From contig CM077594.1 of assembly GCA_039654915.1 (NCBI GenBank), positions 20,459,001 to 20,523,000 of the forward strand: a stretch of DNA of 64,000 nt, written 5' to 3'. The first letter of the stretch is position 1; the number at the start of each line of letters is the position of its first letter. Under the pieces are notes generated by a model. It was not told the DNA's origin and did no database searches. It worked only from the letters and a program-made list of their open reading frames with translations. Positions 29,294 to 52,266 of this stretch are shown here, in pieces. The DNA is from Aquilaria yunnanensis. Lineage: Eukaryota; Streptophyta; Magnoliopsida; Malvales; Thymelaeaceae. The position numbers and the translations under genes are program-made.

Positions 29294-31328
29294 TATGGCT
29301 CTATCCATATCCATCATCACTGAATACCATTGCCACATCTCTGTGGTCACTTAAATCATCCCTAACCATGCTGGTATTGGCTTAAAGATCAATGCAAAAG
29401 AGAAGATTGTGACCTCATTGCAAGTGATACAACTCTTGGATTTTTTTTTTGTAGGAAGAGAAATTTGCTGGTGATCGATATGTAATTAGCTTGAGCAAAT
29501 ACTTTTATTATTATTATTTTTTTTAAAAAAGGAATACTCTACTTATTTAATGATGAGTTGGTTATTTAGGCTAATTTGAAAAAAAGAGTTATTTCTTTGA
29601 GCTAAAAATAGAATAATTGTCAACTTCAACTGAGTTATAAATAGCAACAATATATTTGGGATTTTGGCATCTAAAGAATATTATGAGAAATAAAAATAAT
29701 AGTATTAAAAGAAACAATTTTTATCAATCATAATTACATATGGAATTAAATATATTGGTAAAATAGGCAAATATACCACTCATCTTACACTAAGGGAATA
29801 GTTTGCCCACTAAACTATTTTCTGAGGCAAATGTTCCAATTTTATTTTTGAAATAGGCAAATAACTCACTAACATAATTAATGTATTGGGAAAAATTACC
29901 TATTCAAGGGTGTTAAAGATTAAGGAATTTTTACCCTGTATAGCTTGACCTTTATATATATCCAACTTGATTCAAACTTTGCCTGTTTTGATTTGAATTG
30001 AATTAATAAAATACTGAAGTACTCTAATATATTGAAATAATTTATGTCACAGATAGATATTATATTAGTAAACAAATAGTGCGAGCAATGATGGGGCTCT
30101 TGCCATACTATACATGGCCAAACAGACCCACTCATTTTCTGGCACAAAATTCTATTGTGGATGTTTATGCTAGCACATATCTTTAGTGGTGATGGTTTCT
30201 TTGCTCGGAAAGAAAACATCAGTGGCATATTTGTCTCCAAAAGTACATAAATGACCAATTTGCTTCATTAACATAAGATTTGCGGTATATTTACCCTTTA
30301 GCCTAAATATAGTGTCAACTATAAGTAAAACAATGTTAAAATATCCACTATTTTAGGGACAGGAGTTCTTTCTACATCATTATTTGTTTTTTATTTTTAA
30401 CTTTTTATTTTTTATTTTTTATTTTTTGTATAGAACTAATATAATTTACAAGCTCACACTCTAGCTACCCAATAATTACTTGAACAAAATTTTTTAAGAA
30501 ATAACTGATTTTTTATAACCAACCTCAAAAAATTAATAAAAATACTTAATTTTTTGAAAAAGGTATTTCATAAATAATTTTTATTTCTTTTTAAATTTTA
30601 GATTTTCAATTGGCATGTAAAAAGTTAAGCGAAAAATAAATAAAACTAACAATAATATACTAATTAAATAACTTATTATATAATCTCTCCTAAACATAAT
30701 CGTAACTCCAAATACAGCCAAAAGATTTACCATCACATACACATTTTTTAGGGTAATTTACAGTTATCTTCCTAAACTTAAGTTAATATTATGAAAATCT
30801 ACACTTTTCACCTCAGTAACACAAAGCATCTCAAACACGGAAGCGAGGGTAGGAAATCATTATTTTTTAAAAATTGAAGTAAGTAAAAATGATATTAGTC
30901 TAATCAGAGCGAAAGTTCAAAGCGAGAGTAAGAGAGTTGACAAAAATTGAAAAATTATGTCACATGGTTTTCCACCATGCTCTTTTTACACTGTCTAGTA
31001 GTAGCTTTTAAAATTTGAATTTAAATTGTCATTATCTACAAGTAACTTTAATTTCTCCAGTATTTTCTTATACAATTAATGCACATTCTAAATTATTAGA
31101 ATATATTTACTAGATGATTTAAATTAAAATTTTATAAATTATTATTAAATAGTATAATAAAAAGAGGGAAATATAAATTTTAAAATCTCAAAGTTGTAAT
31201 TGCAATATCAATAAATGTAACATTTCATGATCGACGAAGTCAGACCGAAGGGGGGAAGCCATTAATTTTGGACTTGGTCTAAGTCTAAGCCTACTGCATG
31301 CATTACAGCCAAGGCCCATGAACGCAAG
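29294..31328. repeat. Tandem segmental duplication, first copy (about 2.04 kb)
   Basis: Starts at TATGGCTCTATCC and is repeated head to tail from 31329. Similarity is high throughout, with scattered substitutions and small indels. It contains a Mutator-like MITE (29756-30303) that is also in the second copy, so the MITE insertion predates the duplication. No convincing gene is in the unit; a minus-strand open frame at the copy boundary (31188-31385) is unrecognised. Confidence 0.85.
29756..30303. mobile_element. Mutator-like MITE, copy in first duplicate
   Basis: Terminal inverted repeats: left GGTAAAATAGGCAAATATACC, and the right end on the minus strand GGCTAAAGGGTAAATATACC, with similarity continuing inward. 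It is flanked by 9-mers TAAATATAT (29747-29755) and TAAATATAG (30304-30312). A 9-bp target duplication is the hallmark of the Mutator superfamily. No coding capacity. Confidence 0.65.
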
Positions 31329-32791
31329 TATGGCTCTATCCATATTCATCATCACTGAATACCACTGCCACATCTCCCTGGTCACTTAAATCATCCCAAC
31401 CATGCTGGTATTGGCTCAAAGATCAATAGAAAAGAGGAGATTGCGACCTCATTGCAAGTGATACAATTGTTAGAATTTTTTTGGACTGGGAGAAATTTGC
31501 TGGTGACCGATATGTAATTAGCGCAAGAAAATACTTTTACTTTTTTTTTTTTTTTGAAAAAAAAGGAATACTCTACTTATTTAATGATGAGTTGGTTATT
31601 TAGGCCAATTTGAAAACAAGAGTTATTTCTTTGAGCTAAAAATAGAATAATTGTCAACTTCAACTGAGTTATAAATAGCAACAATATATTTGAGATTTTG
31701 GCATCTAAAGAATATTATGAGAAACAAAAATAATAGTATTAAAAGAAACAATTTTTATCAGTCACAGTTACATATGGAATTAAATATATTGGTAAAATAG
31801 GCAAATATACCACTCATCTTACACTAAGGGAATAGTTTGCCCACTAAACTATTTTCTGAGGCAAATGTTCCACTTTTATTTTTGAAATAGGCAAATAAAT
31901 CACTAACATAATTAATGTATTGGAAAAAATTACCTATTCAAGAGTGTTAAAGATTAAGGAAATTTTACCCAGTATAGCTTGACGTTTAAATATATCCAAC
32001 TTGATTCAAACTTTGCCTGTTCTGATTTGAATTGAATTAATAAAATACTTAAGTGCTCTAATATATTGAAATCATTTATGCCATAGATAGATACTATTAT
32101 ATTAGTAAACAAATAGTGCGAGCAATGATGGGGCTCTTGCTATACTATACATGGCCAAACAGGCTACTCATTTTCTAGCACGAAATTCTGTTGTGAATGT
32201 TTATGCTAGCACATATCTTTAGTGGTGGTGGTTTCTTTGCCCGGAAAGAAAACATCAGTGGCATATTCGTCTCCAAAAGTACATAAATGACCAATTTGCT
32301 ACACTAACATAAGATTAGTGGTATATTTACCCTTTATCTTAAATATATTACATCTTCCCACTTCAAGTTAATGAGCGTGTCAACTATAAGTAAAAAAATG
32401 TTAAAATATCCACTATTTTAGGGACAGGAGTTCTTTCCACATCATTATTTGTTTTTTTTTTAACTCATTATTTTTTATTTTTTGTATAGAACTAATATAA
32501 TTTACAAGCTCACACTCAAGCTACCCAATAATTACTTGAATAAATTTTTTTAAGAAATAACTGATTTTTTATAACCAACCTTAAAAAATTAATAAAAATA
32601 CTTAATTTTTTGAAAAAGGTATTTCATAAATAATTTTTATTTCTTTTTAAATTTTAGAGTTTCAATTGGCATGTAAAACGTTAAGAAAAAAAATAAATAA
32701 AACTAACAATAATATACTAATTAAATAACTTATTATATAATCTCTCCTAAATACAATCGTAACTCCAAATACAGCCAAAAGATTTACCATC
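31329..32791. repeat. Tandem segmental duplication, second copy, left part
   Basis: Matches 29294 to about 30740 of the first copy and stops at the insertion point of the 15.4 kb LTR retrotransposon. The copy resumes at 48199 with no loss other than the 5-bp target duplication. Confidence 0.85.
31790..32339. mobile_element. Mutator-like MITE, copy in second duplicate
   Basis: Same element as at 29756-30303. Here both flanking 9-mers are TAAATATAT (31781-31789 and 32340-32348), a perfect Mutator-type target duplication. Confidence 0.65.
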
Positions 32792-35317
32792 TGTTGACAC
32801 CCAATTTCGTCCGATTGTCATTAAAAAAAAAATAATATTAATTAATTAAAAGAAAAATTAATCAATTAAATTAAAAAATAATATTATATATTGATAACAG
32901 TTAGTTTAGGAGGGGGCATTCTTATTTTTATAAGTTAAAAAAAATAAAATAAAATAAAAATAAAAATGAATAAAATATAATAATATATCTGTTTGTGTGT
33001 GTTAAATTAAAATTAAAATTTATTAATTAATTAAAAAAAAAAAATAGTAATAATAATAATAGATAATCTTATCTCCAGAGGCTTCGAGGCTCTCTGGAGC
33101 CTTCTCCGTTCTTCTTTTCTTTTCTATTAAGCTCGACCTCCCTCATCTCAATAATAGAGGCTCGAGTTCTCTCTCTTCTCGGGCCATCTCTCTCTTTCCT
33201 CACTCTGCTCTCTCTCTCCCTCACGCCATACAGAGCTCTCTGATTCTCAACTCTCTCCTTCACCTCGGCTCGAAGGAGCTCCACTCCTCGCTGCTCTAAT
33301 CCCTGTCCCTCGCCTTGTCCCTGTCACCTCTGCCCTTCGTCTTGCTCACCAACCCTCTCCTCTCAGCCTAGTCACTGCCGCCAGCCGCCGCCACACCTTC
33401 TCCCGGCCGCACATCGCCCTGTCGCTCTGGAGTCACGACAATCCCCGATGTAACACGCTAAACGAGTAGAGCCCGAAACCATCGCCATCACTCGCTCTTC
33501 AGCCCGCCGTTCCACTCGTTTTCTCTCTGACGTAACCCTCTGACGTCTCCATTCGACGCTCCAGTCGCCGCCCCTGTCACGACCACACGCTGCTTGCTAC
33601 ACCGCCGCGCCTAGCACCCCCCTCTTGCCGTCGTACCTCCCTCCAAGCCTCCCTCCTCCCGTCACGATCTTCGCGACGCTGCCACTGCGCCTCCTCCCCT
33701 GCCGCGTCGCGTCTCCGAGCACACCGGCGCCCTTCCCTGCTATCCGAGCACGCCGCCGCGTCTTCTCTGCCGTCTGAGCACGCCGACGCGCTCCCCTGCC
33801 TTAACCACCATCACCTCGTCGCCTGAAGGTTGAAGACGAACCAGGAAGAAGACGAAGATGAAAACCGCCTGTTACGCGTCTTTCGTTATTTTGACCGAGT
33901 CAAAGATTTTCTGTTTTTGTATAATCCTCGTTTAGCCCTTTTGATTTCCTGTTTCGTTCATACAAGTCACTAACATCCTTTTATTTTACAGATTAGTCAC
34001 TGATGGCGGGATTTTTATTGATTTTTTTTTTATTGTTTTGTTTTATTTATTCTGCCTGTTTGAGTTTTGCATTAACTTTAACTATTAAATTTATATGAAA
34101 TATGACTTATATGTTTTACTTTCACGTTGTCTGTTTTGTTTTATTTTGATTATTTTCTTTTTATTTGTTCTCTTTATTTACTCATCGGTTGATTTATTTA
34201 CTTACTTACTTGACTATCTATTTTATTTATTTACTTACTTCTTTATTTATTTACTTTCTTTGATTTCTTTCTTTGTTTTGTTTGATTTGTCTATCTATAA
34301 AATTTAATCATTAAATCTATATAGGCTTGTCACTCGGAATGTTTAACTCATTTTTATATTCTCTTATTCTTATAATTGTGATTTAGATCTCATAATGCAT
34401 CTTGAAAACAACAAATATTAATAGTGTATAAAAATAATTAGTAAATTAATTGCTCATGTATGCTTACTTTTCTCATCATCTAGGAATTAAGAAAAGATTT
34501 AATAAGAGTCTATTTTATAACACTTGGCAAATTTCAAAGACCCGTCCTTGATGGTTTGATAAAATCCTAAGACGGATCATATCCATGTCCAAATGATTCG
34601 GTTAGAATCCATGGCTTGGATATTAGCTAAAATTATTAAAAAATAAAATTAAATTAAATAACGAAATCCTAAGACGGATCATATCCATGTTCAAATGATT
34701 CGGTTAGAATTCACGGCTTGGATATTAGCTAAAATTATTAAAAAATAAAATTAAATTAAATAACGAAATCCTAAGATGGATCATATCCATGTCCAGATGA
34801 TTCGGTTAGAATCCATGGCTTGGATATTAAATTCCATATCCGGATGATTCGGCAGGATCTACGGTTTGGAAAATATTAACTTTTAAAATTAAATAAATAC
34901 AAAGATAAAAATCCATGTTTACAATATGGATTAAATTATTTAAAATTTCACCAAATTCCGTGTCCAAATGACTCGGCAGAGTCCATGGTTCGGAATCAAA
35001 TCTTCCGTGTCCAAATGACTCGGCAGAGTCCATGGTTCGGAAGTATAAAATTCTATACAAATTAATTACCAAAAATCCACATCCGACTAATTCAGTTAAA
35101 ATTTCTGTTTAGAACATTAACTGAATATTTTTAAAGCAAAGCAAGACAAAAATTGAAATCAACTAAGGTACCAATTTTTGGGCGTTTTAACAAAGTTGTT
35201 TTAACGTAACCGTACTCCCGAACCCCCGAACTCTCGCAGACCAATTTTAAGGTGTCCAATCGACCTAGGTGAAACAGATTGGTGGCGACTCCCGAAAACG
35301 GCCCGCACGTTGCCATA
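32792..35317 (+). repeat. 5' LTR of the 15.4 kb element
   Basis: Begins TGTTGACACCC and ends GTTGCCATA. It contains an AT-rich left part, a GC- and pyrimidine-rich block (33061-33850) with a perfect hairpin CTCCAGAG/CTCTGGAG at about 33072-33098, an intron-like stretch ending in a good acceptor (TTTATTTTACAG near 33991), and a 102-bp tandem repeat (from about 34559) followed by related shorter repeats around ATTCGGTTAGAATCCATGG. Short open frames here recur in the 3' LTR and are not genes. Confidence 0.88.
34559..35045. repeat. 102-bp and shorter tandem repeats inside the 5' LTR
   Basis: ATCCTAAGACGGATCATATCC-type units start at 34564, 34666 and 34768 (102-bp steps). They continue as shorter related units (ATGACTCGGCAGAGTCCATGG) to about 35045. 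The same block is in the 3' LTR at +12,881 bp. Confidence 0.8.
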
Positions 35318-35320
35318 GCT

Positions 35321-35338
35321 TGGCGACTCCGCTGGGGA
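35321..35338 (+). other. Primer-binding site
   Basis: TGGCGACTCCGCTGGGGA begins 3 nt after the 5' LTR. The leading TGG pairs with the tRNA CCA end. This type of site is typical of Ogre/Tat elements. I infer tRNA priming but did not verify the tRNA species. Confidence 0.7.
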
Positions 35339-36079
35339 CCCTGGTTAGTGAGTCAAGCCTAAAAGTTGATTTATTTTGTTCTGTTTTGTTTATTTTTATG
35401 TGAATTTATATGTTATATTTACTTATTCTAAACATGCATAATGCATTCACAAAATGAAGCTCTATACCCGAGCTTCCTTAAATCAAACACGATTCTTTCT
35501 AAGCGGAATTGGTGTTGCTGTCCTTGTGAGGCCACGGTCTCCAAGCCTTCACCGGTTTCAAAGTAGCAAAGTAGTGTATTGCCTTCTGAGACGGTTAGTC
35601 TCTGCATGGGCCCACGAAAAGCTACGACTCGAATTAATCCATTCCTTACATTAACCCTAGAGGGTAAGGAATCGGGCTGTCACTATAATTTAGTGACGGG
35701 ATTCGGGAACTATCCCTGGCCTTTTTGATAAGCCACCTTATGCATATAGAATTCCCCACTTAACCATAGAACTGACCATAGAATTTCTACCATTTACCAA
35801 CACTATAAGCATGTTATTGTTATGCCATTTTTGTTACCTTATCCTTGGGTTTCTTTGTGTTTTATATTTATGGCTCAGACTTCTTTTCGTAATAGTTCAT
35901 GTGTTATTAATTGATATCTAACTCGTTGTTAACCTTGTTATTCTTTTGTTATACTTCTGTTTTGTACAATTTTTCGTCATGCATCAAAACCACGCACCAA
36001 ACTGTAATAACTTTTGATCTTTCTAAATGACAACTAAAAATCTCGAAGTTCTACGATAGTTGATAATCAAACTCACTTA

Positions 36080-36330
36080 TTGCATGCATCCATTACATCA
36101 ATCATGTGCATACAAAGTCTGATAAAAACATAATCTCATTTTGTATTGCATGCATCCATTACATCAATCACGTGCATACAAAGTTTGATAAAACATAATC
36201 TCATTTTGTATTGCACGCATCCATTACATTAAATACATGCATACAAAGTCTGATAAAAACATAATCTCATTTTGTATTACATACATCCATCACATCAATC
36301 AATTGCATATAAAGTTTAATAAAATGAATC
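36080..36330. repeat. 66-bp tandem repeat in the leader, four copies
   Basis: Units contain GCATCCATTACATCAATCA, GTGCATACAAAGTCTGATAA and CATAATCTCATTTTGTATT, repeating at about 66 bp upstream of the gag remnant. Possibly structural RNA of the leader, but no function can be shown. Confidence 0.75.
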
Positions 36331-36394
36331 TCACTTTAGAAACGGTAAAATTGGCCATCAACACCGATATCCAGCTCGGCTCCAAATAAGATTA

Positions 36395-37497
36395 ATGGCA
36401 GAACAAACCAAAGGACGTCTCATAGATATGAAGTCCAATATAGAAAGTATGGCTGAGCAAATGAAACAGTTAATGGAGTTAGCGACCCAAGTCCCCGTCA
36501 ATGACCCACAAGATCTAACCTATCCTCCCCAATTCACTCAGAACAGGTCTCAGTTCAAGAGAAGCTCTTTCATGACTCAGGTCTATCTGATATCATTCAT
36601 CTAAGGCACAGTCCAATTTTTGAAGAAAAGAAGCTCCTGCTTAAAGAAGAAGAGAATACTAAAAAAACTCAAGATCATAGAAAAGAGACTGCGGACCATT
36701 GAAAGAGGCACTTTATCTCTTTTGATGAACAATCTTTGCTTGATACCAGATGTTGTGATTCCCTCATACTTTAAGATACCTGACTTTGTGAAATATGATG
36801 GAATAAGTTATCCCATCAATTATATTACGCTGTTTCTAAGGAAAATACAACCACTCACAAGAGACGAGAAAGTGTTGATAGCACTTTTTCAAAAAAAATC
36901 TTATAAAGTCAGCACTACAATGGTATCTAAGTCAAGGTCTGAGAAACATCAAAGCCTGGAATGACCTCGTTTAAGCTCTCAATCAGTAACTGTGAGCATG
37001 TTATAGACTTACCCCTAGATCACCAAATTCTCCAGAATATAGAGAAGAAGGAACAAGAGACCTTTAAGGAATACGCATAAAGGTGGAGACACTTAGCCGC
37101 ACAAGTTTAACCATCTATGATAGAAAGAGAATTGATCACCCTGTTTACCCAGGCATTAAATAGACCATTTCATGAAAAACTAGTTGGGAACACTTCAAGT
37201 AGCTTTTCAAATGTGGTCTTATCTGGAGAAAAGATCGAATTTGGAATCAAAACAGAAAAGCTGGTCGATTCTTCAATTGAAGGATGTTTCAATGAAAGAA
37301 CCGGAGCTATCCAAAACATCATCTCCAAGTCCTATGATCCAATACCACTCAAGTTACAAGTGAAAGGATATCCTATTGAGACTGTAATCTTCAAGGCTCC
37401 CTCATCAGTGCCACATACCACTCATGGGAAGAAAGGCTACTCAAGTCGATTCAATTTTCACAAGTTACAAACCTGCTACCACCCATACCAACGGTAA
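36395..37497 (+). pseudogene. Degraded gag of a Tat/Ogre-type retrotransposon
   Basis: It opens with ATG at 36395 and a segment typical of these Gags (MAEQMKQLMELATQ). After a frame change, 36720-36960 reads LIPDVVIPSYFKIPDFVKYD and RDEKVLIALFQ. After more stops, a third open piece (37117-37497) reads HEKLVGNTSSSF and GEKIEFGIK. These are successive blocks of the plant Tat/Ogre capsid region in the right order but in different frames with stops between, so no Gag can be made. It retains no zinc knuckle that I can see. The loss of gag means packaging must be supplied in trans if the element moves. Confidence 0.75.
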
Positions 37498-37499
37498 CA

Positions 37500-40360
37500 A
37501 AGATCAAGTAGCCTCCTCTTCCAAGTTGGAATGACCCAAACGCCAAATATAAAATGTTCAATTGGGCATTGTGTGGCACTAAAACTCAAGGTCCAATAGT
37601 TGGTCGAGTTTAAATTCCTAGGCCATGATGTGATTGGTAAATGAAAGTGAAGATTTCGAGCTGGAATTACATTGATTTTGGAAGGACTCCAAGTCAGATC
37701 TGACCTAATAGTCCGCACACACTTTTGAATGACAGGGAATCCTTTGAATAAACTTGTATCTTTGAAAGCTTGCAAAAGTAATTTAATAGTAAAAATCTCC
37801 TAGATTTAGTCCAGAATCTAGGGTGTAGTCTTTGTTAAATGGACACCTGCTATTCTTTTTCTGGTACAACAAAAAGATGTGATGCGTGCATTCTACTACT
37901 TTCCATTTTTACACTCTTTGCCATTATACTATCCATTATTGCTATCACACTTTACTTTTTCGACAACCGGTAATTCTTTTTGTTCTCTAACAAAAAGATG
38001 TTGCGTGTGCATTCTACCACTTTTTAATTCCATTATTACATCTACACATTCTACCAATTTTTACCAAAAATTCAATTATTACACCTACACATTCCACCAC
38101 TTCTTACCAAAAATTCCATTTTTACATCCATCTCTCACTCCTTTCCATTATACTATCCATTATTGCCATCATACTTTGCTTTCTAAATGATACTACTCGT
38201 GGGTGAAAATAAAAAGTTAAGGAAAATTTGATAGTAGTGATCTTGAAAGTGCTGCCAAATCTAGTAAGAAGGATTTCAAACGTTGCACCTCAACCCTCAA
38301 AAGGAATTCACAGTGGTTATCAACATCCTTGCAAGAAGTCCGGTGTTAGCTTCCAAATCCAAAGAAGTTAGCTCTCATATTAAATGGCTTTAATGGTCTC
38401 TCAATTCTCATGAATGCTCAACACAAGCAAAGGTTCTCAGTTCTCTGCAACACAAACTCCAAAAAAAAAAAAAAAAGAGAAAGTTCATCCCTTCCATCAA
38501 AAAGCCAACAAGGGAAAATTCAAAACCAAAAAAAGTGAGACTGAGAGCAAACACAAGCAAGTAAGGCCACTTGAATCATCTCATTTCAAGAAGGCTATGA
38601 TCTCGGTTCTTTGTAACAAAAACTCCGAAAAGGAAAAAGTTCATCCCTTCCACCAAAAAGCCAACAAGGGAAAATTCAAAACCAAAAAGAACTGAGAACA
38701 AGCACGAGCAAGCAAGGTCACTTGAGTCATCTCACTTCAAGAGAGTTATCAAGTATGTTATCACCATAGCTCACACAAAAAAAAAACAAAAAAACAAAAA
38801 AAAAAAGAGGAAAAAGGGCTCAAACTAGAAAAAAAAAAAAAGAAAGAAAAAAAGTGAGCTATGGATTCTAGACTGAAAACCTGCAAAGGCAGTTTAGAAC
38901 ACAAAAGCAACCCTCGAACCAAGCATACATAAAGACCACGATAGTTGGGGGGCAACAGATGAGGTTTAACTTTCTGGAAAGAGTGGCAAGTTTGAGGTCA
39001 TCACTATTGAGTTTTTCATCATAATCAAATTTGCTCACGAGTAGTATTAAAAGACCCTTCTTTCAAACCACTTAAACTTAACTTTCCTCAGACTTATCAT
39101 CCTCATTCAGCTAAAAGACTATCATTGTGAAACATGTTTCTACCTTATTTAATACTGCTCACGAGTAGTATTAAAAGACCATTCTTTCACACCACTTAAA
39201 TTTAACTTTCCTCAGACCTAACATCCTCATTCAGTTAAAAGGCTATCATTGCAAACCATGTTTCTACCTTATTTAATACTGCTCACGAGTAGTATTAAAA
39301 GTCCATTCTTTCACACCACTCAAACTTAACTTTACTCAGACCTAATATTTACCTCTTAATATTATTCTCATTCAGCTAAAAAACAAAACAAAACAAAAAA
39401 CATTCAAACTTAACTTTCCTCACACCTAACATTTACCTCTCGATATCATCCTCATTCAGTTAAAAGGCTATTATTGTGAATCATGTTTCTACCTTATTGC
39501 CTTGCACAGTTTATGTCTTCGAGTTGGAAAGGGAAGAATGGCAGGACATTTTAATTGAAAACAAAGACCGTAAATTACTTTGTCAAGCTTTGCAAATTGA
39601 TGAAAGTTTTTCTTTAAGGCCAAACCATTATTCATTAATGTGTGTAGACTTAAAAGTGAGGAGATAGCTTGAGTCTTTCTTTAATAAGATGTGGTTCTTG
39701 TAAGAGAAATTTACGATCAAGTGCCATCACAAAGGTCTAGAAATGCTCGACCTTCTGTTAAATTAAAGGCGAGATGATATCTCTTTCCACATAAACACCA
39801 TATTCAGGGGGGCAAAGTAGTCTCTACGAAGCGTAAGAGGAGTACTGCCAACAAAGAAGTTCAATAGACAAGGGGGCAAGTCTTATGGATCAAAACATGA
39901 GTTCAAGGAAGAGCAATCATTCAGATTATAACATGGGAATAAGTAAGTGTCGGCACGGTCACAAGAAAAGGGGCAAAGCAGACATTGAAAGTAAAGCCTT
40001 TGATGGTATCAAATCCATGACAATGGATGAATACCCGAAAGAGATATAAATTATGAGACAGGCCAACTTTAAAGAAATTGAGGCCAAAATTCAAAGAACA
40101 AGTCAAAGAAAGAGGATTTTGAAAAGAGTTGGGCTTTTGAGGCAGCGAACAAAAGCTGAAAAGCATAAAGAGATTCAATAATAGTCCAAGAAGGCCATCA
40201 CAAAAGAGGATCCAGTAAAACAAAGACATAAAGAACTAGGTCCATACAAAAAAAAGCCATTAGTTACACATGCTCTGCATTCATGCATTTCATATCATGC
40301 ATACATAGCCTTTACATAACAAGGACCAAACGGGAATCACATTCACAGCACAGTTACAGC
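37500..40360. repeat. Non-coding internal region of the 15.4 kb element with several tandem repeats
   Basis: Contains a loose repeat of CATTCTACCACTTTTTA-type text (about 37880-38165), a two-copy repeat of about 156 bp (38430-38700, landmark TTCATCCCTTCCA at 38484 and 38640), A-rich tracts (38780-38850), and a 124-bp repeat (landmark GCTCACGAGTAGTATTAAAA at 39033, 39157 and 39281) that decays toward 39490. Open frames here are short, and I recognise no pol motif in any frame. This is where protease, RT and integrase would sit in a complete relative. Confidence 0.6.
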
Positions 40361-40489
40361 AATATAAGCTGAGATCTCAATGTCATCAGCTCTTACCAAT
40401 CTATCACTGGATACACAGCTAATATGCGGGACCAACCCGCATCAGGAATTCAAGGATAAAGTAGACAATATTGTCAAAAGCTTAGCTAC

Positions 40490-40835
40490 CGATTCAATAA
40501 TCGAGGCTACACCTAGAAGGATAGGATTGACGCCAGCTAGTAGTATCCAAGATAAGAGATAGCTATAGCCAAGGATAAGGCTGATATCAAAAAAATATAA
40601 AGCCTGGCAATCGATTTAATAATCGAGACTACACCTGGAAGGACAGGATTGACGTCAGCTAGTAGTATCCAAGATAAGAGATAGCTGTGGTCAAAGATAA
40701 GGCAGACATCAAGAAATATTGTCGTTGAAACTTTGTCAAAAGCGGACAAAAGATTCAATAATCAAGGACTGGATCAATGTCATGCCTGATGAGATATCAA
40801 AGATAAGAAATATCTATGATACTAAAATAAAGTAG
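40490..40835. repeat. ~122-bp tandem repeat upstream of the NABP-like ORF
   Basis: The segment containing ATCGAGGCTACACC, AGGATTGACG and TAGTAGTATCCAAGATAAGAG occurs at about 40500 and 40622 with a degenerate third copy to about 40835. The second copy contains TGACGTCA (40650-40657), a palindromic bZIP/TGA-factor site. It could be a promoter-proximal array for the ORF at 40954; this is inference. Confidence 0.6.
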
Positions 40836-40953
40836 GATCCACTTTTCCGGTTAAACGGCGGATACGGTACTCCGTGACTCTCAAGTCGGTTCTCTCAGTT
40901 GCCCATAATAACTGATTCCTTCACCCCTTCTTTCTTTTACTTCCTCCTAGAAA

Positions 40954-41373
40954 ATGGATCCTACTTTTTCCGCTCTACGAAAATATTTCCCTTCTTTCCC
41001 AATAAATGTTCTTAAAATGATTTACCAAGCTAGATGTGAAAGGATTAGAGTCTTTATGCACAAAGGCATTCCTGACAATGTGCGGTGCTTAATTGAAGCT
41101 AAGGTCCGCTCGGCTGATGAAGTTTCAGACGCATTTGTGCCCCGTATGCCCGGCTTAGGTAAAAGCGCTTATGCCGAAAAGCGAAGAGCAAAGAGGCTAG
41201 GTGTCTGTCATAAATGTGGACGATGGAATTGCGATGCTAAATGTCGTTCTTTAGGGATGATCACCAAAAATCTTGAAGATAAAAGAAAATTCATCAAGAA
41301 TGGCCTGCGTAAGGAATCTTTGGATAATATCCTATTAACTTTTGAAACACATTCTTGTGAAATAGTGCAATGA
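40954..41373 (+). CDS. Basic cysteine-rich protein resembling plant-virus nucleic-acid-binding proteins (NABP), inside the retrotransposon
   Basis: Intact ORF of 139 residues, single exon, with a favourable start context (AAAATGG). The N-terminal ~60 residues look helical. Residues 70-81 form a basic stretch (KSAYAEKRRAKR) followed at once by a four-cysteine cluster, C85-x2-C88-x4-C93-x3-C97 (CHKCGRWNCDAKC). The order Gly/Ser, basic block, cysteine cluster is the signature of the 3'-proximal NABPs of carla-, viti- and allexivirus-type filamentous RNA viruses; several of those are RNA-silencing suppressors. The best reading is a captured viral-type gene, but a retroelement zinc-finger protein of other origin is possible. 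It is followed by a 40-codon open frame (41380-41502) of no clear meaning. No stop or frameshift is present, unlike the gag remnant in the same element. Confidence 0.5.
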   Translation: MDPTFSALRKYFPSFPINVLKMIYQARCERIRVFMHKGIPDNVRCLIEAKVRSADEVSDAFVPRMPGLGKSAYAEKRRAKRLGVCHKCGRWNCDAKCRSLGMITKNLEDKRKFIKNGLRKESLDNILLTFETHSCEIVQ

Positions 41374-41560
41374 GAAATTATGGATTTATGGTGGACTTTC
41401 CGTAAAGAACAGGATCGTTACAGTCTTGAAAATCTGACTTTTAATGACCCAGTCTGCCAGTTTGTGAGAAAACTGGATGGGATGCAAATCGCCAATTCAT
41501 AGAAGGCATTGAAGACGTTACTGAATGCAAAATCAATGGAACACGTGGACCAAAGTCACG

Positions 41561-41860
41561 ATTACTGTACATACTAGCTGTCGCTTTTGAAATTATCCTC
41601 CTAATAATGTACCCACTCCTGACATGAGATACAGTTATGACTACTGTATATAGCTGCCACTTTTGAAATTTTCCTTCTCTTCCAACAATCACGTACCTAC
41701 TCCTGACGTAAGCTACAGTAGTGACTACTGTACATGCTAGCAGCTATTTTGAAAATTTTCCTCCTCTTTTAACGATAGTGTACCCATACCTGACCAGAGT
41801 CATGCCCGTGACTACTGTGAATAGCTGGCAATAATGTATCCATTCTTGAAAAATAAAATT
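41561..41860. repeat. Promoter-proximal tandem repeat of 79-87 bp, 3.5 copies, upstream of the LOG ORF
   Basis: The landmark (A/T)TACTGT recurs at 41561, 41640, 41724 and 41811 (steps 79, 84, 87), each followed by AGCTG..., TTTTGAAA, TCCTCCT and a CCTGAC motif. One copy carries TGACGTAAG (41704-41712), identical to the core of as-1-type elements bound by TGA bZIP factors. The array ends about 20 bp before the TATA box, so it has the geometry of repeated enhancer modules. Confidence 0.65.
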
Positions 41861-41878
41861 ATTGCCTTATCTCTTCAT

Positions 41879-41889
41879 CTCTATAAATA
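41879..41889 (+). promoter_or_regulatory. TATA box upstream of the LOG ORF
   Basis: TCTATAAATATATCC ends about 30 bp before the ATG at 41922. The spacing implies a very short 5' leader (initiation near 41905-41915) if used. With the repeat array just upstream, it looks like a private promoter separate from the LTR. Confidence 0.55.
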
Positions 41890-41921
41890 TATCCTCTTTT
41901 CTCACAAGGATAAGGATAGGA

Positions 41922-42551
41922 ATGGAGAAAACCCCAACTCGTAAATCCCGAAGTATTTGTGTATTTTCTGGGGCTTTTCCTGGAAAAGATGAAGAGTACT
42001 TAAAGGCAGCCAACCATTTGGGTAGAGTATTAGCTGAGCGAAAAATACATTTAGTTTATGGAGGAGGTAGTGTCGGATTAATGGGAGGTGTAGTATCAGC
42101 AGCATCTTTAGGAGGAAGTCAAGTTTTGGGTATCATCCCTAGACCTTTGAAATTTGTTTCCGGAGGCACGATTGAAGAAGAATTAATGGTAAAAAATCTA
42201 CAAGAGCGTGTGCTACAAATGCTTTTAAATGCTGATGCTTTCATGGCTCTACCCGGCGGTTTTGGTACATTAGGAGAAGTCTTCCAAATTGCTTCCATGG
42301 CCCAACTTAATTTGCATAAGAAACCCATTGGGCTTTTGAATATTAACAATTTCTTTACAGGTCTGATAACTTTTATGGATTATGCTATGCAGAAGAATTT
42401 CATATCAAGAGTGGCACGGCGAATCATAATATCCCCAACAACTGCTGAAGAATTACTAGATAAAATGCAAGCTTTTGTTCCTGAACCAGATCCAGCGATG
42501 ATCCAAATAGACTGGGCACGACAGTCTTTCCCAACCAGTTCCGTCCCATAA
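41922..42551 (+). CDS. LONELY GUY (LOG)-family cytokinin riboside 5'-monophosphate phosphoribohydrolase, intronless, inside the retrotransposon
   Basis: Intact ORF of 209 residues, the usual length of plant LOG proteins (about 200-225). LOG enzymes cut cytokinin nucleotides to free, active cytokinin bases in the cytosol. Visible motifs: a Rossmann-like start ICVFSGAFPGKDEEY (12-26), LVYGGGSVGLMG (44-55), VLGIIP (68-73), and the family signature LPGGFGTLGE (110-119) containing PGGxGTxxE with Glu119. Arg96 (LQERVLQM) aligns with the catalytic Arg of the MHxRKxxM motif, but the Lys after it is Val. The protein ends VPEPDPAMIQIDWARQSFPTS. Host LOG genes have several introns; this copy has none, which points to capture from an mRNA or from a non-plant source. 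Divergence in the Arg motif leaves substrate specificity open. The start at 41922 was chosen because it is the first ATG after the TATA box and matches the LOG N-terminus. Confidence 0.85.
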   Translation: MEKTPTRKSRSICVFSGAFPGKDEEYLKAANHLGRVLAERKIHLVYGGGSVGLMGGVVSAASLGGSQVLGIIPRPLKFVSGGTIEEELMVKNLQERVLQMLLNADAFMALPGGFGTLGEVFQIASMAQLNLHKKPIGLLNINNFFTGLITFMDYAMQKNFISRVARRIIISPTTAEELLDKMQAFVPEPDPAMIQIDWARQSFPTSSVP

Positions 42552-43094
42552 TTATCCTCTACTCACCCTGTTGAAGTATTGTGGAAGAAGAAGAGATCTG
42601 ATCCGTTTTTCTTGTCCTTTAGTTTTAATTATCAGCATTTTCTTTCGTGTTCCAGTTTTTCTTTTCAGGGAATTTCCTTTTTATCTTATAAGATAGTTTC
42701 GTCCATGCTGATATTAAAACCATGGGACAATGCCTTTAGGTTGGAATGGCTGAGTAAAGAGTAATTTTTATTACTCTTGAGACGCATCCTATTAGGTCTA
42801 CTAGGCATGACATTTTGGGGTAGTTAAGCTTTAACCTTATTGGGATGACATATCTCTCAAGCGAATCTATATTTACTGAAAAAAATATTAGATGAACCTT
42901 GGATATTGATTCCAAACATCCGTTCCCTTTATATAATTTGTCAGTGTTATTGTCATCATCAAGATTCACTTGTTTTATCGAAGCCTAATTCTTTGCACTC
43001 GTCTATTATGAAAATTCACACTTTCGAAGAAAATTATTCCAATTTCAATTGCTTCCATATAAATTTCGCTCGAGGTCCTAAGGAAAGCTCCTTA
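42552..43094. other. Downstream region of the LOG ORF
   Basis: Presumed 3' UTR and spacer of the LOG transcription unit. I see no further gene. It passes directly into the hairpin-bearing tandem repeats. Confidence 0.4.
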
Positions 43095-45535
43095 GCCTCA
43101 AAATCAATTTTCATCATCGGGGTTTTAAGGATAGAACCTTTGCCACGAAAACAATCAATTTTCATCATCGGGGTTTTAAGGATAGAACCTTTGCCTCGAA
43201 AACAATCAATTTTCATCATCAAGGTTTTAAGGATGGAACCTTTGCCTCGAAAACAATCAATTTTCATCATCGGGGTTTTAAGGATAGAACCTTTGCCTCG
43301 AAAATAATCAATTTTCATCGTCGGGAGTTTAAGGATGGAACCTTTGTCTCGAAAACAATCAACGGTAGGACTGCTCCTATCGTCGGGGTTTTAAGGATGA
43401 AACCTTTGCCTCGAAAACAATCAATTTTCCTTCAACGGTAGGACTGCTCCTATCGCCGGGGTTTTAAGGATGGAACCTTTGCCTCGAAATCAATCAACGG
43501 TAGGACTGCTCCTATCGTCGGGATTTTAAGGATGGAACCTTTGTCTCGAAAACAATCAACGGTAGGACTGCTCCTATCGTCGGGGTTTTAAGGATGGAAC
43601 CTTTGCCTCGAAAACAATCAATTTTCATCGTCGGGATTTTAAGGATGGAACCTTTGTCTCGAAAACAATCAACGGTAGGACTGCTCCTATCGTCGGGGTT
43701 TTAAGGATGGAACCTTTGCCTCGAAAACAATCAATTTTCCTTCAAACGATAGGAGAGTTCCTATCGTCGAGGTTCTAAGGTAGGACCCTTAACCTCAAAA
43801 CAATCAATTTTCCTTCAAACGATAGGAGAGTTCCTATCATCGAGGTTCTAAGATAGGGCCCTTAACCTCAAAACAATCAATTTTCCTTCAAACGATAGGA
43901 GAGTTCCTATCGTCGAGGTTCTAAGGTAGGACCCTTAACCTCAAAACCATCAATTTTCCTTCAAACGATAGGAGAATTCCTATCGTCGAGGTTCTAAGGT
44001 AGGGCCCTTAACCTCAAAATCATCAATTTTCCTTCAAACGATAGAAGAGTTCCTATCGTCGAGGTTCTAAGGTAGGGCCCTTAACCTCAAAACAATCAAT
44101 TTTCCTTCAAACGATAGGAGAGTTCCTATTGTCGAGGTTCTAAGGTAGGACCCTTAACCTCAAAATCATCAATTTTCCTTCAAACGATAGGAGAGTTCCT
44201 ATCGTCGAGGTTCTAAGGTAGAACCCTTAACCTCAAAATCATCAATTTTCCTTCAAAATGATAGGAGAGTTCCTATCGTCGAGGTTCTAAGGTAGGACCC
44301 TTAACCTCAAAATCATCAATTTTCCTTCAAACGATAGGAGAGTTCCTATCGTCGAGGTTCTAAGGTAGGACCCTTAACCTCAAAATCATCAATTTTCCTT
44401 CAAACGATAGGAGAGTTCCTATCGTCGAGGTTCTAAGGTAGGACCCTTAACCTCAAAATCATCAATCAATCATTCAGTCCATCTTACAATGATAGAACCT
44501 TTTCTATCGTTAGAGGTTCTAAGGACCTTTCCTTAAACCTCAATCAAACAATCAATCATTCAGTCCATCTTACAACGATAGAACCTTTCCTATCGTTAGC
44601 GGTTCTAAGGACCTTTCCTTAAACCTCAAACAAACAATCAATCATTCAGTCCATCTTACAATGATAGAACTTTTCCTATCGTTAGAGGTTCTAAGGACCT
44701 TTCCTTAAACCTCAATCAAACAATCAATCATTCAGTCCATCTTACAACGATAGAACCTTTCCTATCGTTAGAGGTTCTAAGGACCTTTCCTTAAACCTCA
44801 AGCAAACAATCAATCATTCAGTCCATCTTACAACGATAGAACCTTTCCTATCGTTAGAGGTTCTAAGGACCTTTCCTTAAACCTCAAACAAACAATCAAT
44901 CATTCAGTCCATCTTACAACGATAGAACCTTTCCTATCGTTAGAGGTTCTAAGGACCTTTCCTTAACCTCAAACAAACAATCAATTATTCAGTCCATCTT
45001 ACAACGATAGAACCTTTCCTATCGTTAGAGGTTCTAAGGTAGGGCCCTTAACCTCAAAACAATCAATTTTCCTTCAAACGATAGGAGAGTTCCTATCGTC
45101 GAGGTTCTAAGGTAGGACCCTTAACCTCAAAACCATCAATTTTCCTTCAAACGATAGGAGAGTTCCTATCATCGAGGTTCTAAGATAGGGCCCTTAACCT
45201 CAAAACAATCAATTTTCCTTCAAACGATAGGAGAGTTCCTATCGTCGAGGTTCTAAGGTAGGGCCCTTAACCTCAAAACAATCAATTTTCCTTCAAACGA
45301 TAGGAGAGTTCCTATCGTCGAGGTTCTAAGGTAGGACCCTTAACCTCAAAACAATTAATTTTCCTTCAAACGATAGGAGAGTTCCTATCGTCGAGGTTCT
45401 AAGGTAGGACCCTTAACCTCAAAATCATCAATTTTCCTTCAAACGATAGGAGAGTTCCTATCGTCGAGGTTCTAAGGTAGGACCCTTAACCTCAAAATTA
45501 TCAAATTTTCCCTTCAATGATAGGAGAGTTTCTAT
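43095..45535. repeat. Four-block tandem repeat array with a conserved small hairpin
   Basis: Block A (43095 to about 43735) has 51-bp units (TTTTAAGGATGGAACCTTTGCC) with a longer variant including CGGTAGGACTGCTCCTATCG. Block B (about 43736-44460) has ten 73-bp units at 43747, 43820, 43893, 43966 and so on, each with CGATAGGAGAGTTCCTATCG. Block C (44461 to about 45030) has seven units of 86/85 bp with AACGATAGAACCTTTCCTATCGTT. Block D (about 45031-45535) returns to 73-bp units. Most longer units keep a CGATAG...CTATCG stem although the rest has diverged. The frame across block A is open because 51 is divisible by three, giving a 17-residue repeat peptide; I do not consider it a gene. Confidence 0.85.
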
Positions 45536-45657
45536 CGCAGAGGCTCTAAGGAAGATTGCTTAACCTTATGGTTTAGGCGGTGAGAAGGTTCTCAAGGCCT
45601 AGCTGACCCTGACGAAATTTGGTAACGACTTTGCATACATCATGTCCTATGAAGTAT

Positions 45658-45672
45658 GCAAAGGGGGGCAGC
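45658..45672 (+). other. Polypurine tract of the 15.4 kb element
   Basis: GCAAAGGGGGGCAGC lies immediately upstream of the 3' LTR start TGTTGACACCC, the expected place for plus-strand priming. Confidence 0.75.
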
Positions 45673-48198
45673 TGTTGACACCCAATTTCGTCCGATTGTC
45701 ATTAAAAAAAAAATAATATTAATTAATTAAAAGAAAAATTAATCAATTAAATTAAAAAATAATATTATATATTGATAACAGTTAGTTTAGGAGGGGGCAT
45801 TCTTATTTTTATAAGTTAAAAAAAATAAAATAAAATAAAAATAAAAATGAATAAAATATAATAATATATCTGTTTGTGTGTGTTAAATTAAAATTAAAAT
45901 TTATTAATTAATTAAAAAAAAAAAATAGTAATAATAATAATAGATAATCTTATCTCCAGAGGCTTCGAGGCTCTCTGGAGCCTTCTCCGTTCTTCTTTTC
46001 TTTTCTATTAAGCTCGACCTCCCTCATCTCAATAATAGAGGCTCGAGTTCTCTCTCTTCTCGGGCCATCTCTCTCTTTCCTCACTCTGCTCTCTCTCTCC
46101 CTCACGCCATACAGAGCTCTCTGATTCTCAACTCTCTCCTTCACCTCGGCTCGAAGGAGCTCCACTCCTCGCTGCTCTAATCCCTGTCCCTCGCCTTGTC
46201 CCTGTCACCTCTGCCCTTCGTCTTGCTCACCAACCCTCTCCTCTCAGCCTAGTCACTGCCGCCAGCCGCCGCCACACCTTCTCCCGGCCGCACATCGCCC
46301 TGTCGCTCTGGAGTCACGACAATCCCCGATGTAACACGCTAAACGAGTAGAGCCCGAAACCATCGCCATCACTCGCTCTTCAGCCCGCCGTTCCACTCGT
46401 TTTCTCTCTGACGTAACCCTCTGACGTCTCCATTCGACGCTCCAGTCGCCGCCCCTGTCACGACCACACGCTGCTTGCTACACCGCCGCGCCTAGCACCC
46501 CCCTCTTGCCGTCGTACCTCCCTCCAAGCCTCCCTCCTCCCGTCACGATCTTCGCGACGCTGCCACTGCGCCTCCTCCCCTGCCGCGTCGCGTCTCCGAG
46601 CACACCGGCGCCCTTCCCTGCTATCCGAGCACGCCGCCGCGTCTTCTCTGCCGTCTGAGCACGCCGACGCGCTCCCCTGCCTTAACCACCATCACCTCGT
46701 CGCCTGAAGGTTGAAGACGAACCAGGAAGAAGACGAAGATGAAAACCGCCTGTTACGCGTCTTTCGTTATTTTGACCGAGTCAAAGATTTTCTGTTTTTG
46801 TATAATCCTCGTTTAGCCCTTTTGATTTCCTGTTTCGTTCATACAAGTCACTAACATCCTTTTATTTTACAGATTAGTCACTGATGGCGGGATTTTTATT
46901 GATTTTTTTTTTATTGTTTTGTTTTATTTATTCTGCCTGTTTGAGTTTTGCATTAACTTTAACTATTAAATTTATATGAAATATGACTTATATGTTTTAC
47001 TTTCACGTTGTCTGTTTTGTTTTATTTTGATTATTTTCTTTTTATTTGTTCTCTTTATTTACTCATCGGTTGATTTATTTACTTACTTACTTGACTATCT
47101 ATTTTATTTATTTACTTACTTCTTTATTTATTTACTTTCTTTGATTTCTTTCTTTGTTTTGTTTGATTTGTCTATCTATAAAATTTAATCATTAAATCTA
47201 TATAGGCTTGTCACTCGGAATGTTTAACTCATTTTTATATTCTCTTATTCTTATAATTGTGATTTAGATCTCATAATGCATCTTGAAAACAACAAATATT
47301 AATAGTGTATAAAAATAATTAGTAAATTAATTGCTCATGTATGCTTACTTTTCTCATCATCTAGGAATTAAGAAAAGATTTAATAAGAGTCTATTTTATA
47401 ACACTTGGCAAATTTCAAAGACCCGTCCTTGATGGTTTGATAAAATCCTAAGACGGATCATATCCATGTCCAAATGATTCGGTTAGAATCCATGGCTTGG
47501 ATATTAGCTAAAATTATTAAAAAATAAAATTAAATTAAATAACGAAATCCTAAGACGGATCATATCCATGTTCAAATGATTCGGTTAGAATTCACGGCTT
47601 GGATATTAGCTAAAATTATTAAAAAATAAAATTAAATTAAATAACGAAATCCTAAGATGGATCATATCCATGTCCAGATGATTCGGTTAGAATCCATGGC
47701 TTGGATATTAAATTCCATATCCGGATGATTCGGCAGGATCTACGGTTTGGAAAATATTAACTTTTAAAATTAAATAAATACAAAGATAAAAATCCATGTT
47801 TACAATATGGATTAAATTATTTAAAATTTCACCAAATTCCGTGTCCAAATGACTCGGCAGAGTCCATGGTTCGGAATCAAATCTTCCGTGTCCAAATGAC
47901 TCGGCAGAGTCCATGGTTCGGAAGTATAAAATTCTATACAAATTAATTACCAAAAATCCACATCCGACTAATTCAGTTAAAATTTCTGTTTAGAACATTA
48001 ACTGAATATTTTTAAAGCAAAGCAAGACAAAAATTGAAATCAACTAAGGTACCAATTTTTGGGCGTTTTAACAAAGTTGTTTTAACGTAACCGTACTCCC
48101 GAACCCCCGAACTCTCGCAGACCAATTTTAAGGTGTCCAATCGACCTAGGTGAAACAGATTGGTGGCGACTCCCGAAAACGGCCCGCACGTTGCCATA
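45673..48198 (+). repeat. 3' LTR of the 15.4 kb element
   Basis: Collinear with the 5' LTR at a constant offset of 12,881 bp from first to last base, with the same hairpin, GC-rich block and 102-bp repeats. I found no substitution in the stretches I compared. Confidence 0.88.
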
Positions 48199-48818
48199 CC
48201 ATCACATACACATTTTTTAGGGTAATTTACAGTTATCTTCCTAAACTTAAGTTAATATTATGAAAATCTACACTTTTCACCTTAGTGACACAAACAAAGC
48301 ATCTCAAATGCGGAAGCAAGGGTAGGAAATCATTATTTTTTAAAAATTGAAGTAAGTAAAAATGATGTAAAAATGATATTAGTCTAATTAGAGCGAAAGT
48401 TCAGAGCAAGAACAGGAGCGGGAGAGTTGACAAAAATTGAAAAATTATGTCACATAGTTTTCCGCTATGCTCTTTTTACATTGTTTAGTAGCAGCTTTTA
48501 AAATTTGAATTTAAATTGCCCATTATCTATAAGTAACTTTAATTTGTCCAGTATTTTTTTTTACAATTAATGCACGTTCTAAATTATTAGAATATATTTA
48601 CTAGATAATTTAAATTAAAATTTTATAAATTATTATCAAATAATATTAAAAAAAACAGAAAAAATATAAATTTTAAAATCTCAAAGTTGTAATTGCAATA
48701 TCAATATAAATTTAATGTAACCTTTCATGATCGACGAAGTCAGACCGGAGGGGGGACGCCATTAATTTTGGACTTGGTCTAAGCCTAATGCATGCATTTC
48801 AGCCAAGGCCCATGAACG
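48199..48818. repeat. Tandem segmental duplication, second copy, right part
   Basis: Continues the duplicate from the insertion point (CCATCACATACACATTTTTT) and matches about 30740-31325 of the first copy, ending at GGCCCATGAACG. Confidence 0.85.
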
Positions 48819-51532: not shown

Positions 51533-52266
51533 TCACAAATCACTTCTCTGATTAGAAAAAGAAGAGAACTGCTGAGCCAAATCCTTAAGAATTTGGACCA
51601 ATCCTCCCAAATCATTACTTCCCAATTCAAGACAATCCCTGAATAGACCACCCTCCACCAATTCTTTCTGCACTGTCTCCAAAATCTGCCTTATTGGTCC
51701 CTATAAAGTTTCCACGCAAACAATTAAACCCCCAATTTGAAAAACCATGAAATTTCTCACTCGAATTTTGCAGAAATTTAAATGGAAAAGAAGGGTACCG
51801 ATTTCTGGAACACTTCGAGAAGCCTTCGGCAGACGCGTTCCGAGGCCTGGAACGCCGACCCATAATTCCGAGCGGCCCACTCAGCTTTGGCGGCCGCCGA
51901 GTCCGATCGATTCAACTGACCCAGCAGCCGACCGAGCTCGTTCAGATCCACAACGACGCCGTAGAGTTCCACGTAGTCCAACTCCCTCCAGGCGTAATTC
52001 CAAAAGTAATCCCAGCCCAGCGACCACGCCGCGCCAAATAAACCCAGCCGCGACCCTAGCTGAAGCTTCTCGGCTAAGGTTTTGGCCCGCTCGAAGGCCT
52101 CTGTATCCCCGCGCCTCGCTCGAAGGTTGGCGACGCGCGTGAGAAGCGAGTGGGAGAGGGACAGCAAGGTTTTGTACTGGTAGCTGGAAAGGGACTGTGT
52201 GGGCTTTGCTGCGTTGGCGGCGAGGAGAATGACAAGCAGAAGAGTGGCGGCGCGTGAGACGGGCAT
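51533..52266 (-). CDS. Plant-specific secretory-pathway protein of unknown function, two exons, complete
   Basis: Exon 1 is 51799-52266 and exon 2 is 51533-51700. The intron (51701-51798) has a GT donor after the TCG codon and an AG acceptor, and splicing keeps frame, giving 211 residues. Reading through the donor instead gives a shorter protein ending VPFFSI, and the spliced form matches the family better. A signal peptide (MPVSRAATLLLVILLAANAA) is followed by SSYQYKTLLSLSHSLLTRVANLRARRGD, then GLFGAAWSLGWDYFWNYAW and the C-terminal GPIRQILETVQKELVEGGLF with RDCLELGSNDLGGLV. I recognise this as a conserved, mainly helical family found across land plants and annotated only as uncharacterised. 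GC content is much higher than in its surroundings, which is common for short, little-interrupted plant exons. No damage is seen. Confidence 0.8.

Follow-up and report, generated by a model that had tools for sequence, protein, structure and literature searches.

A constrained cassette of LOG-family and viral NABP-type genes in an Ogre/Tat-type LTR retrotransposon lineage of Aquilaria yunnanensis

We analysed a stretch of 64,000 nucleotides of Aquilaria yunnanensis DNA (hereafter the window; C2:20459001-20523000) and found that it holds an LTR retrotransposon with two accessory genes, an intact LOG-family gene and, upstream of it, a gene for a protein of the Carla_C4/Viral_NABP kind (NABP). 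In the Ogre/Tat-type lineage of this genome, LOG and NABP form a two-gene cassette downstream of pol, and both evolve under constraint. The first-pass annotation had described an intact LOG-family gene inside a recent LTR element, which our analysis confirmed, and had overlooked the protein encoded at 40954-41373. The features of the window are as follows.

30728..30825, no strand: empty second copy of the target, matching 48197-48294 at 98% identity (repeat search)
32787..32791, no strand: left target-site duplication (TSD) CCATC, from the sequence on both sides of the element
32792..48198, plus strand: non-autonomous LTR retrotransposon of 15,407 bp, from the identity of its LTRs, the TSD, sisters located at C1 and C3 and a related copy with pol
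32792..35317, plus strand: 5' LTR of 2,526 bp, zero mismatches to the 3' LTR
35321..35339, plus strand: putative primer binding site TGGCGACTCCGCTGGGGAC, from its position just 3' of the 5' LTR
36395..37497, plus strand: broken gag remnant, ends approximate, from the ORF list and a 76% nucleotide match over 36145-37238 to the gag-bearing copy L015
40954..41373, plus strand: NABP gene of 139 aa, shortened form, matching Carla_C4 (3.7e-6) and Viral_NABP (1.3e-6), both above the gathering score
41922..42551, plus strand: LOG-family ORF of 209 aa, intact and intronless, from the ORF list, profile matches and a predicted model
43102..45551, plus strand: tandem arrays with 51-, 62-, 73- and 86-bp units among others, between LOG and the 3' LTR
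45660..45672, plus strand: polypurine-rich tract AAAGGGGGGCAGC, from the sequence directly 5' of the 3' LTR
45673..48198, plus strand: 3' LTR of 2,526 bp, zero mismatches to the 5' LTR
48199..48203, no strand: right TSD CCATC, from the sequence on both sides of the element

Paired LTRs, a TSD and a polypurine tract identify the element as an LTR retrotransposon, which by its relation to a pol-bearing copy belongs to Ty3/gypsy Tat, probably to the Ogre type. The insertion is very young, as its LTRs are identical; the sole mismatch near the LTR ends (32790) lies outside the TG start. The TA preceding CCATC is also common to both sides, so that the boundary may move by 2 bp. The duplicate target from 30728 onward is empty, and the insertion boundaries are therefore fixed within these 2 bp. 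The segments 30130-32791 and 48197-48666 belong to a tandem duplication of ~2 kb, with the element in one copy and the empty site in the other. Given the LTRs, the TSD and the empty site, the LOG ORF is linked to both LTRs at a single insertion; together with the sister copies, the same observations rule out an assembly artefact. The putative primer site presumably corresponds to tRNA-Arg, as in Ogre-like elements. The different units of the arrays at 43102-45551 are intermixed in blocks. Outside the element, a minus-strand ORF at 51778-52266 (162 aa), perhaps a host gene, gave no Pfam match.

No pol ORF was seen in the ORF list of the window copy, and its gag remnant contains only short ORFs (36620-36964 and 37117-37497), while the LOG ORF is intact, as had been noticed before. 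In L015, the gag ORF comprises 634 aa with a Retrotrans_gag domain. The contrast between broken gag and intact LOG had been taken as a hint of selection or of very recent capture; the latter does not follow, since the gag break is common to the sister copy L018 (at C1), in which the 126-aa ORF of the remnant is identical. Because L018 shares the same gag fragment, the broken gag marks a non-autonomous subfamily that was probably already so when it was spreading. The window element may have been copied in trans by a pol-bearing partner.

The LOG ORF belongs to the type-I LOG family, as it passed both curated cut-offs, with 100.6 bits against PF03641 (cut-off 27) and 142.7 bits against TIGR00730 (cut-off 96.35). 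The motifs GGGSVGLMG and PGGFGTLGE (the PGGxGTxxE signature) are present, and an Arg and a Glu align with the catalytic pair, in agreement with the first-pass annotation. Its predicted model has a pLDDT of 86, and the top PDB match is Arabidopsis LOG3, with TM scores of 0.95 (normalized to the target) and 0.79 (normalized to the query). Viral contigs yielded four distant LOG loci, at 29-35% identity.

We then considered how widespread this gene is. In the whole genome of 842 Mb and 345 contigs, the element LOG was sought with a degenerate pattern (for QIASMAQLNLH), which matched exactly at 2,620 places (1,298 on one strand, 1,322 on the other); a host-type pattern, VITW(A/S)QLGIH, matched at 4, and the reversed control was 0 in both cases. 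These counts are lower bounds for the two kinds; host LOGs were counted by pattern, since element copies crowd them out of a protein search. LOG was without a stop in 150/150 of the best 150 of 3,662 candidates and in 146/150 of a second ranking (best 150 of 3,518), and NABP was full length without a stop in 150/150 (best 150 of 8,505), although all of these rankings favour intact copies. Further copies were picked by their non-coding flank (best 40 of 1,747 candidates). Of 49 LOG stretches extracted, not all of them independent since overlapping loci can contain the same genomic copy, 43 were intact at 209 aa and 2 at 207 aa; the four that were not had lost the start, lost the stop, or acquired early stops at 130 and 199. 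Six fetched copies had LTR stretches (at least 915 bp aligned) that were 99.3-100% identical, and an LTR pair was not found within the stretches fetched for two more.

A very recent capture of LOG, as suggested in the first-pass annotation, is thus not tenable, because LOG is an established gene in a lineage that has this many motif matches and relatives in several other plants. A one-off capture is likewise contradicted by the motif count and by the stop-free LOGs of the first ranking.

Selection on the ORF, which had also been suggested, was borne out. The 496 pairs among 32 distinct DNA sequences, all intact LOGs of 209 aa, gave a mean dN/dS of 0.26, with a codon-bootstrap 95% interval of 0.17-0.37, away from 1; since the copies came from protein-similarity rankings, dN is lowered somewhat. 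NABP paralogues within copies gave dN/dS of 0.19-0.42 at dS 0.40-1.00; the two genes are under roughly equal constraint. We also compared LOG with its flanks. Against the 3' flank, 19 distinct copies (171 pairs) gave a dN of 0.039, a dS of 0.157 and a flank divergence of 0.0905, dN being 0.43 of flank; the 87 pairs with a 3' flank divergence above 0.05 gave 0.045, 0.179 and 0.146, respectively. Against the 5' flank (105 pairs of 15 copies), dN was 0.045, dS 0.171 and flank 0.0757, dN being 0.59 of flank. The non-coding flanks diverge less than dS, which makes the flank contrast weaker than dN/dS; the flanks may be constrained themselves, or there may be mixing between copies.

These data bear on the simplest alternative, in which LOG is a captured host gene without function that is intact merely through the youth of the copies. 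The intactness of the window copy alone says little, its LTRs being identical, and the flank-based contrasts are the weaker ones. Nevertheless, the upper bound of dN/dS, a dS that reaches 0.31 and the presence of relatives in several other plant genomes argue against a neutral passenger, which dN/dS rules out in its strict form and which we regard as highly improbable overall.

We examined whether LOG has kept the residues that recognize cytokinin nucleotides. In the Corynebacterium glutamicum LOG, catalysis has been proposed to depend on Arg99 and Glu122, adenine is held by Met96, Lys100 and Glu121, and the likely prenyl site consists of Met96, His97, Lys100, Glu125 and Trp129, the same as in Arabidopsis LOG3 and rice LOG; replacing AMP-binding residues with alanine nearly abolished activity, except for S19A (PMC4979012). 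The known binding residues are also conserved in those wheat LOGs that were compared (PMC11593424). The window protein lacks the pocket residues of a cytokinin riboside monophosphate phosphoribohydrolase: at Met96, His97, Lys100, Glu121, Glu125 and Trp129, it has Leu, Gln, Val, Gly, Gln and Met, respectively.

This pattern is shared by the lineage. Our own set consists of 32 distinct proteins, either 207 or 209 aa long. In it, the catalytic Arg and Glu122 are each present in 32/32, while Met96 is replaced by Leu, Lys100 by Val or Leu and Glu125 by Gln in 32/32, His97 by Gln and Trp129 by Met in 31/32, and Glu121 by Gly in 28/32. Among the relatives in the matches listed, the catalytic Arg is kept in 111/116 and Glu122 in 114/116, Lys100 in 1/116 and Glu125 in 2/116, Trp129 in 113/116, Glu121 in 110/116, Met96 in 85/116 and His97 in 52/116; compared with these relatives, pocket replacement is greatest in the window lineage. 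The count left out 4/120 LOG matches longer than 260 aa (P0002, P0003, P0008 and P0052), three of which, from Xanthoceras, keep Lys100 and Glu125 by eye, P0008 having Ile and Gln. P0071 also keeps the pocket Lys and Glu. In a tree of 42 rows, in which two Arabidopsis LOGs stand for the host LOGs, the position between the Arabidopsis LOGs and the remaining sequences is taken by P0071 and the two Xanthoceras units. The window lineage, represented by P0001 and 10 own proteins, has a long stem (0.62 changes per column).

The label 'cytokinin-activating' given in the first-pass annotation therefore stands only in part: the catalytic Arg and Glu are kept, whereas the replacement of the base- and prenyl-binding residues makes the assignment doubtful. 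A LOG with normal activity would free isopentenyladenine or zeatin and drive division wherever the element is expressed. Its fold, catalytic pair and phosphate-binding motif are retained, and the Xanthoceras relatives and P0071, with their pocket Lys and Glu, indicate that the ancestor may have had the activity. The score against the NCBIfam equivalog NF058542 (95.5 bits, cut-off 300) is not contrary either; we dropped it as an argument, since Arabidopsis LOG3, at 133.5 bits, also misses the cut-off. With all six pocket residues replaced in 28-32 of 32 own proteins, we nonetheless consider normal cytokinin activation rather unlikely, if still the most serious of the alternatives. Our reading is that the enzyme would have kept its chemistry and changed the base it accepts; alternatively, its activity may have been lost in favour of another role.

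LOG relatives (best 120 of 7,731) included proteins from Xanthoceras, Reevesia, Paulownia, Populus, Diplodiscus, Rehmannia and Parasponia. In 100/120 of these listed matches, an LxLxL tail lies at most 3 residues from the C terminus, in many cases preceded by a basic stretch (e.g., KKRKLDLTLRL; carriers include P0092, P0005 and P0068). This tail resembles an EAR motif. No LxLxL tail was found in the extracted LOGs of the window lineage, which end in RQSFPTSSVP or similar.

The tail raises the possibility that LOG has turned into a regulator, where complexes bound to nucleotides or DNA would acquire a TOPLESS-type corepressor through the LxLxL of the relatives and enzyme activity would be secondary. 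The frequency of the tail among the matches listed, often with its basic stretch, and a pocket that drifts while the catalytic pair stays fit such a role. However, the window lineage has no tail and its LOG is nevertheless constrained, the catalytic pair is retained in nearly all proteins, and the EAR assignment of the tail is presumptive. We judge this explanation to be quite unlikely.

The second gene of the cassette is the NABP. The window protein carries the Cys cluster CHKCGRWNCDAKC and the basic stretch KRRAKR. Among its relatives, counting fragments, CX2CX4CX3C occurs in 134/179 and the basic stretch in 159/179, and each of the two Pfam families, Carla_C4 and Viral_NABP, was matched at E <= 0.001 by 20/23. 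A single core, with E about 1e-6, accounts for the likeness to viral proteins, the structure model is poor (pLDDT 61), and a search of viral contigs confirmed no NABP relatives. The gene encodes 182 aa in other copies, and it is also short in the sisters L020 (139 aa) and L018 (144 aa).

Upstream of LOG, the element copies have one to four tandem NABP genes: L012, L022 and L024 have four of 182 aa, sharing 69-80% mutual protein identity, and L009, L015, L018, L020 and L027 have fewer or partly shortened ones. L024 combines four NABPs and LOG with a 461-aa ORF containing a G-patch and with pol, whose ORF encodes RT, RNase H, a further RNase H and integrase; its two ORFs are separated by about 225 bp. 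The Ogre-type hallmarks, namely a second RNase H before the integrase and two ORFs with a gap, were seen in L024 only, the window copy being without pol; in the stretch fetched for L024, gag lies beyond the end and the LTRs were not identified. An aspartyl-protease match in L022 (22.2 bits) is below the cut-off of 24.3. At C8:42.46-42.48M (L009/L011), ~5.35 kb of internal sequence including the NABPs is duplicated head to tail at 100% identity, and two LOG genes are spaced 6.1 kb apart. Some copies also have antisense ORFs (L009:9321-9704, 127 aa; L022:5354-5725, 123 aa).

Similarity searches at E <= 0.001 gave 971 NABP relatives, and those listed (120) included proteins from Xanthoceras, Acer, Orobanche, Diplodiscus, Populus and Rhamnella. 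Single gene models hold both LOG and NABP domains in Acer (P0221, LDcluster4 24.5 against a cut-off of 26.3) and Diplodiscus (P0223, Carla_C4 19.7 against 20.9). Moreover, LOG and NABP proteins from the same source on contigs of equal size, P0020/P0226 (8,723 nt), P0056/P0130 (4,511 nt) and P0054/P0192 (2,128 nt), suggest linked pairs. To judge by their copy number and similarity, the relatives in other plants would likewise lie in LTR elements.

Viral Cys-rich proteins of the NABP kind are described as silencing suppressors, and p12 of CVB as a transcription factor that induces hyperplasia (PMC12172455). Through its NABP partner, the proliferation effect suggested in the first-pass annotation thus gains some indirect backing. 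NABP could be the working part of the cassette by anti-silencing, LOG serving the physiology of the element, e.g., non-hormone nucleotide salvage. The amplification of NABP to four constrained copies, the suppressor activity of the viral proteins and the altered LOG pocket are compatible with this, whereas a constraint on LOG about equal to that on NABP and the gene models that unite both domains speak against it. Anti-silencing as the only function is, in our opinion, very unlikely.

The explanation that we prefer, to which we give about an even chance, is a resident NABP-LOG cassette of the Ogre/Tat-type lineage, in which an anti-silencing NABP and a LOG with altered base recognition make the host cell permissive. 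By analogy with its viral relatives, NABP would enter the nucleus, bind nucleic acid and counter silencing or reprogram transcription. LOG would still be a nucleoside-monophosphate phosphoribohydrolase, acting on a different or broader range of nucleotides or binding cytokinin nucleotides in another way. Both together would render the host cell less silenced and more proliferative or meristem-like, which would increase the chance of new insertions reaching the germ line. By the same viral analogy, a host-conditioning module may be the most economical reading of the two genes. Among the points against it, the pocket changes could mean that hydrolase activity has been lost, and the window NABP is a shortened form.

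A more far-reaching version, which we consider unlikely as a whole, is a long-lived lineage with a two-part host-manipulation module, where a tandem virus-type suppressor or transcription factor and a re-specified LOG, with a corepressor tail in most relatives among the matches listed, would keep cells proliferative and unsilenced. If true, a selfish element would steer cell fate via a hormone-like nucleotide product. The role of the extra ORFs of plant retrotransposons is poorly understood, and this lineage co-retains under constraint two types of accessory gene whose relatives have known biochemistry, one common to RNA viruses and one a hormone-metabolism enzyme with an altered pocket; their accessory role thus becomes directly testable by enzyme and silencing assays. 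Element LOG-like ORFs, which far outnumber the host matches, could also contaminate the annotation of the LOG gene family. A Populus trichocarpa protein in the element-like LOG group (P0068) bears the public record name LOGL10, and plant LOG gene counts may therefore include element copies.

A LOG domain in plant LTR elements has already been reported, and the NABP partner appears to be the new side, as no report of an NABP partner or domain in retrotransposons was found in the literature searched, which included few subscription papers. Within the same search, the sole report on LOG in retrotransposons that we judged relevant is that of Alvarado-Marchena et al. (2022), in which consensus LTR elements from two Citrus species, and from Populus once a filter was switched off, contain YgdH/LOG domains; that study refers to Steinbauerova et al. 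(2011) on this point (PMC9289625). The likeness is a LOG-family domain in plant Gypsy-type elements, Populus being among the present relatives; the difference is that LOG is listed there rather than studied, section 12 giving no LOG residues, and that the main text contains neither 'nucleic acid binding' nor 'carlavirus' (PMC9289625).

With Ogre/Retand (Tat) elements, the lineage shares the second RNase H before the integrase and the ORF gap of ~225 bp, both in the pol-bearing L024 (Neumann et al. 2019, PMC6317226), and the tandem repeats preceding the 3' LTR (PMC6317226; Vicient 2025, PMC11963269). Their extra domains are a plant mobile domain in Ogre and an antisense Transposase_28 in Retand, whereas here they are NABPs and LOG in sense orientation (PMC6317226, PMC11963269); the main text of the Retand survey mentions no cytokinin, LOG or nucleic acid binding (PMC11963269). 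The carlavirus Cys-rich proteins such as CVB p12 have in common with NABP the Carla_C4/Viral_NABP core, a basic stretch and a Cys cluster, but here genes of predicted activity lie on an LTR retrotransposon, where as many as four diverged 182-aa copies stand in tandem (PMC12172455).

Compared to the plant type-I LOG (Arabidopsis LOG3, 2a33), the element LOG has the same fold, catalytic Arg and Glu and PGGxGTxxE, but it is intronless, its adenine and prenyl contacts are replaced, and 100/120 relatives among the matches listed end in LxLxL. Finally, Gypsy elements of Phalaenopsis that encode an AlkB RNA demethylase offer a parallel, as they too are Tat-like and carry an added enzyme proposed to counter host control; that enzyme is a different one, described from two orchid species in that screen with no mention of an NABP partner in the passages on it (PMC9289625), whereas the lineage described here joins LOG to NABP.
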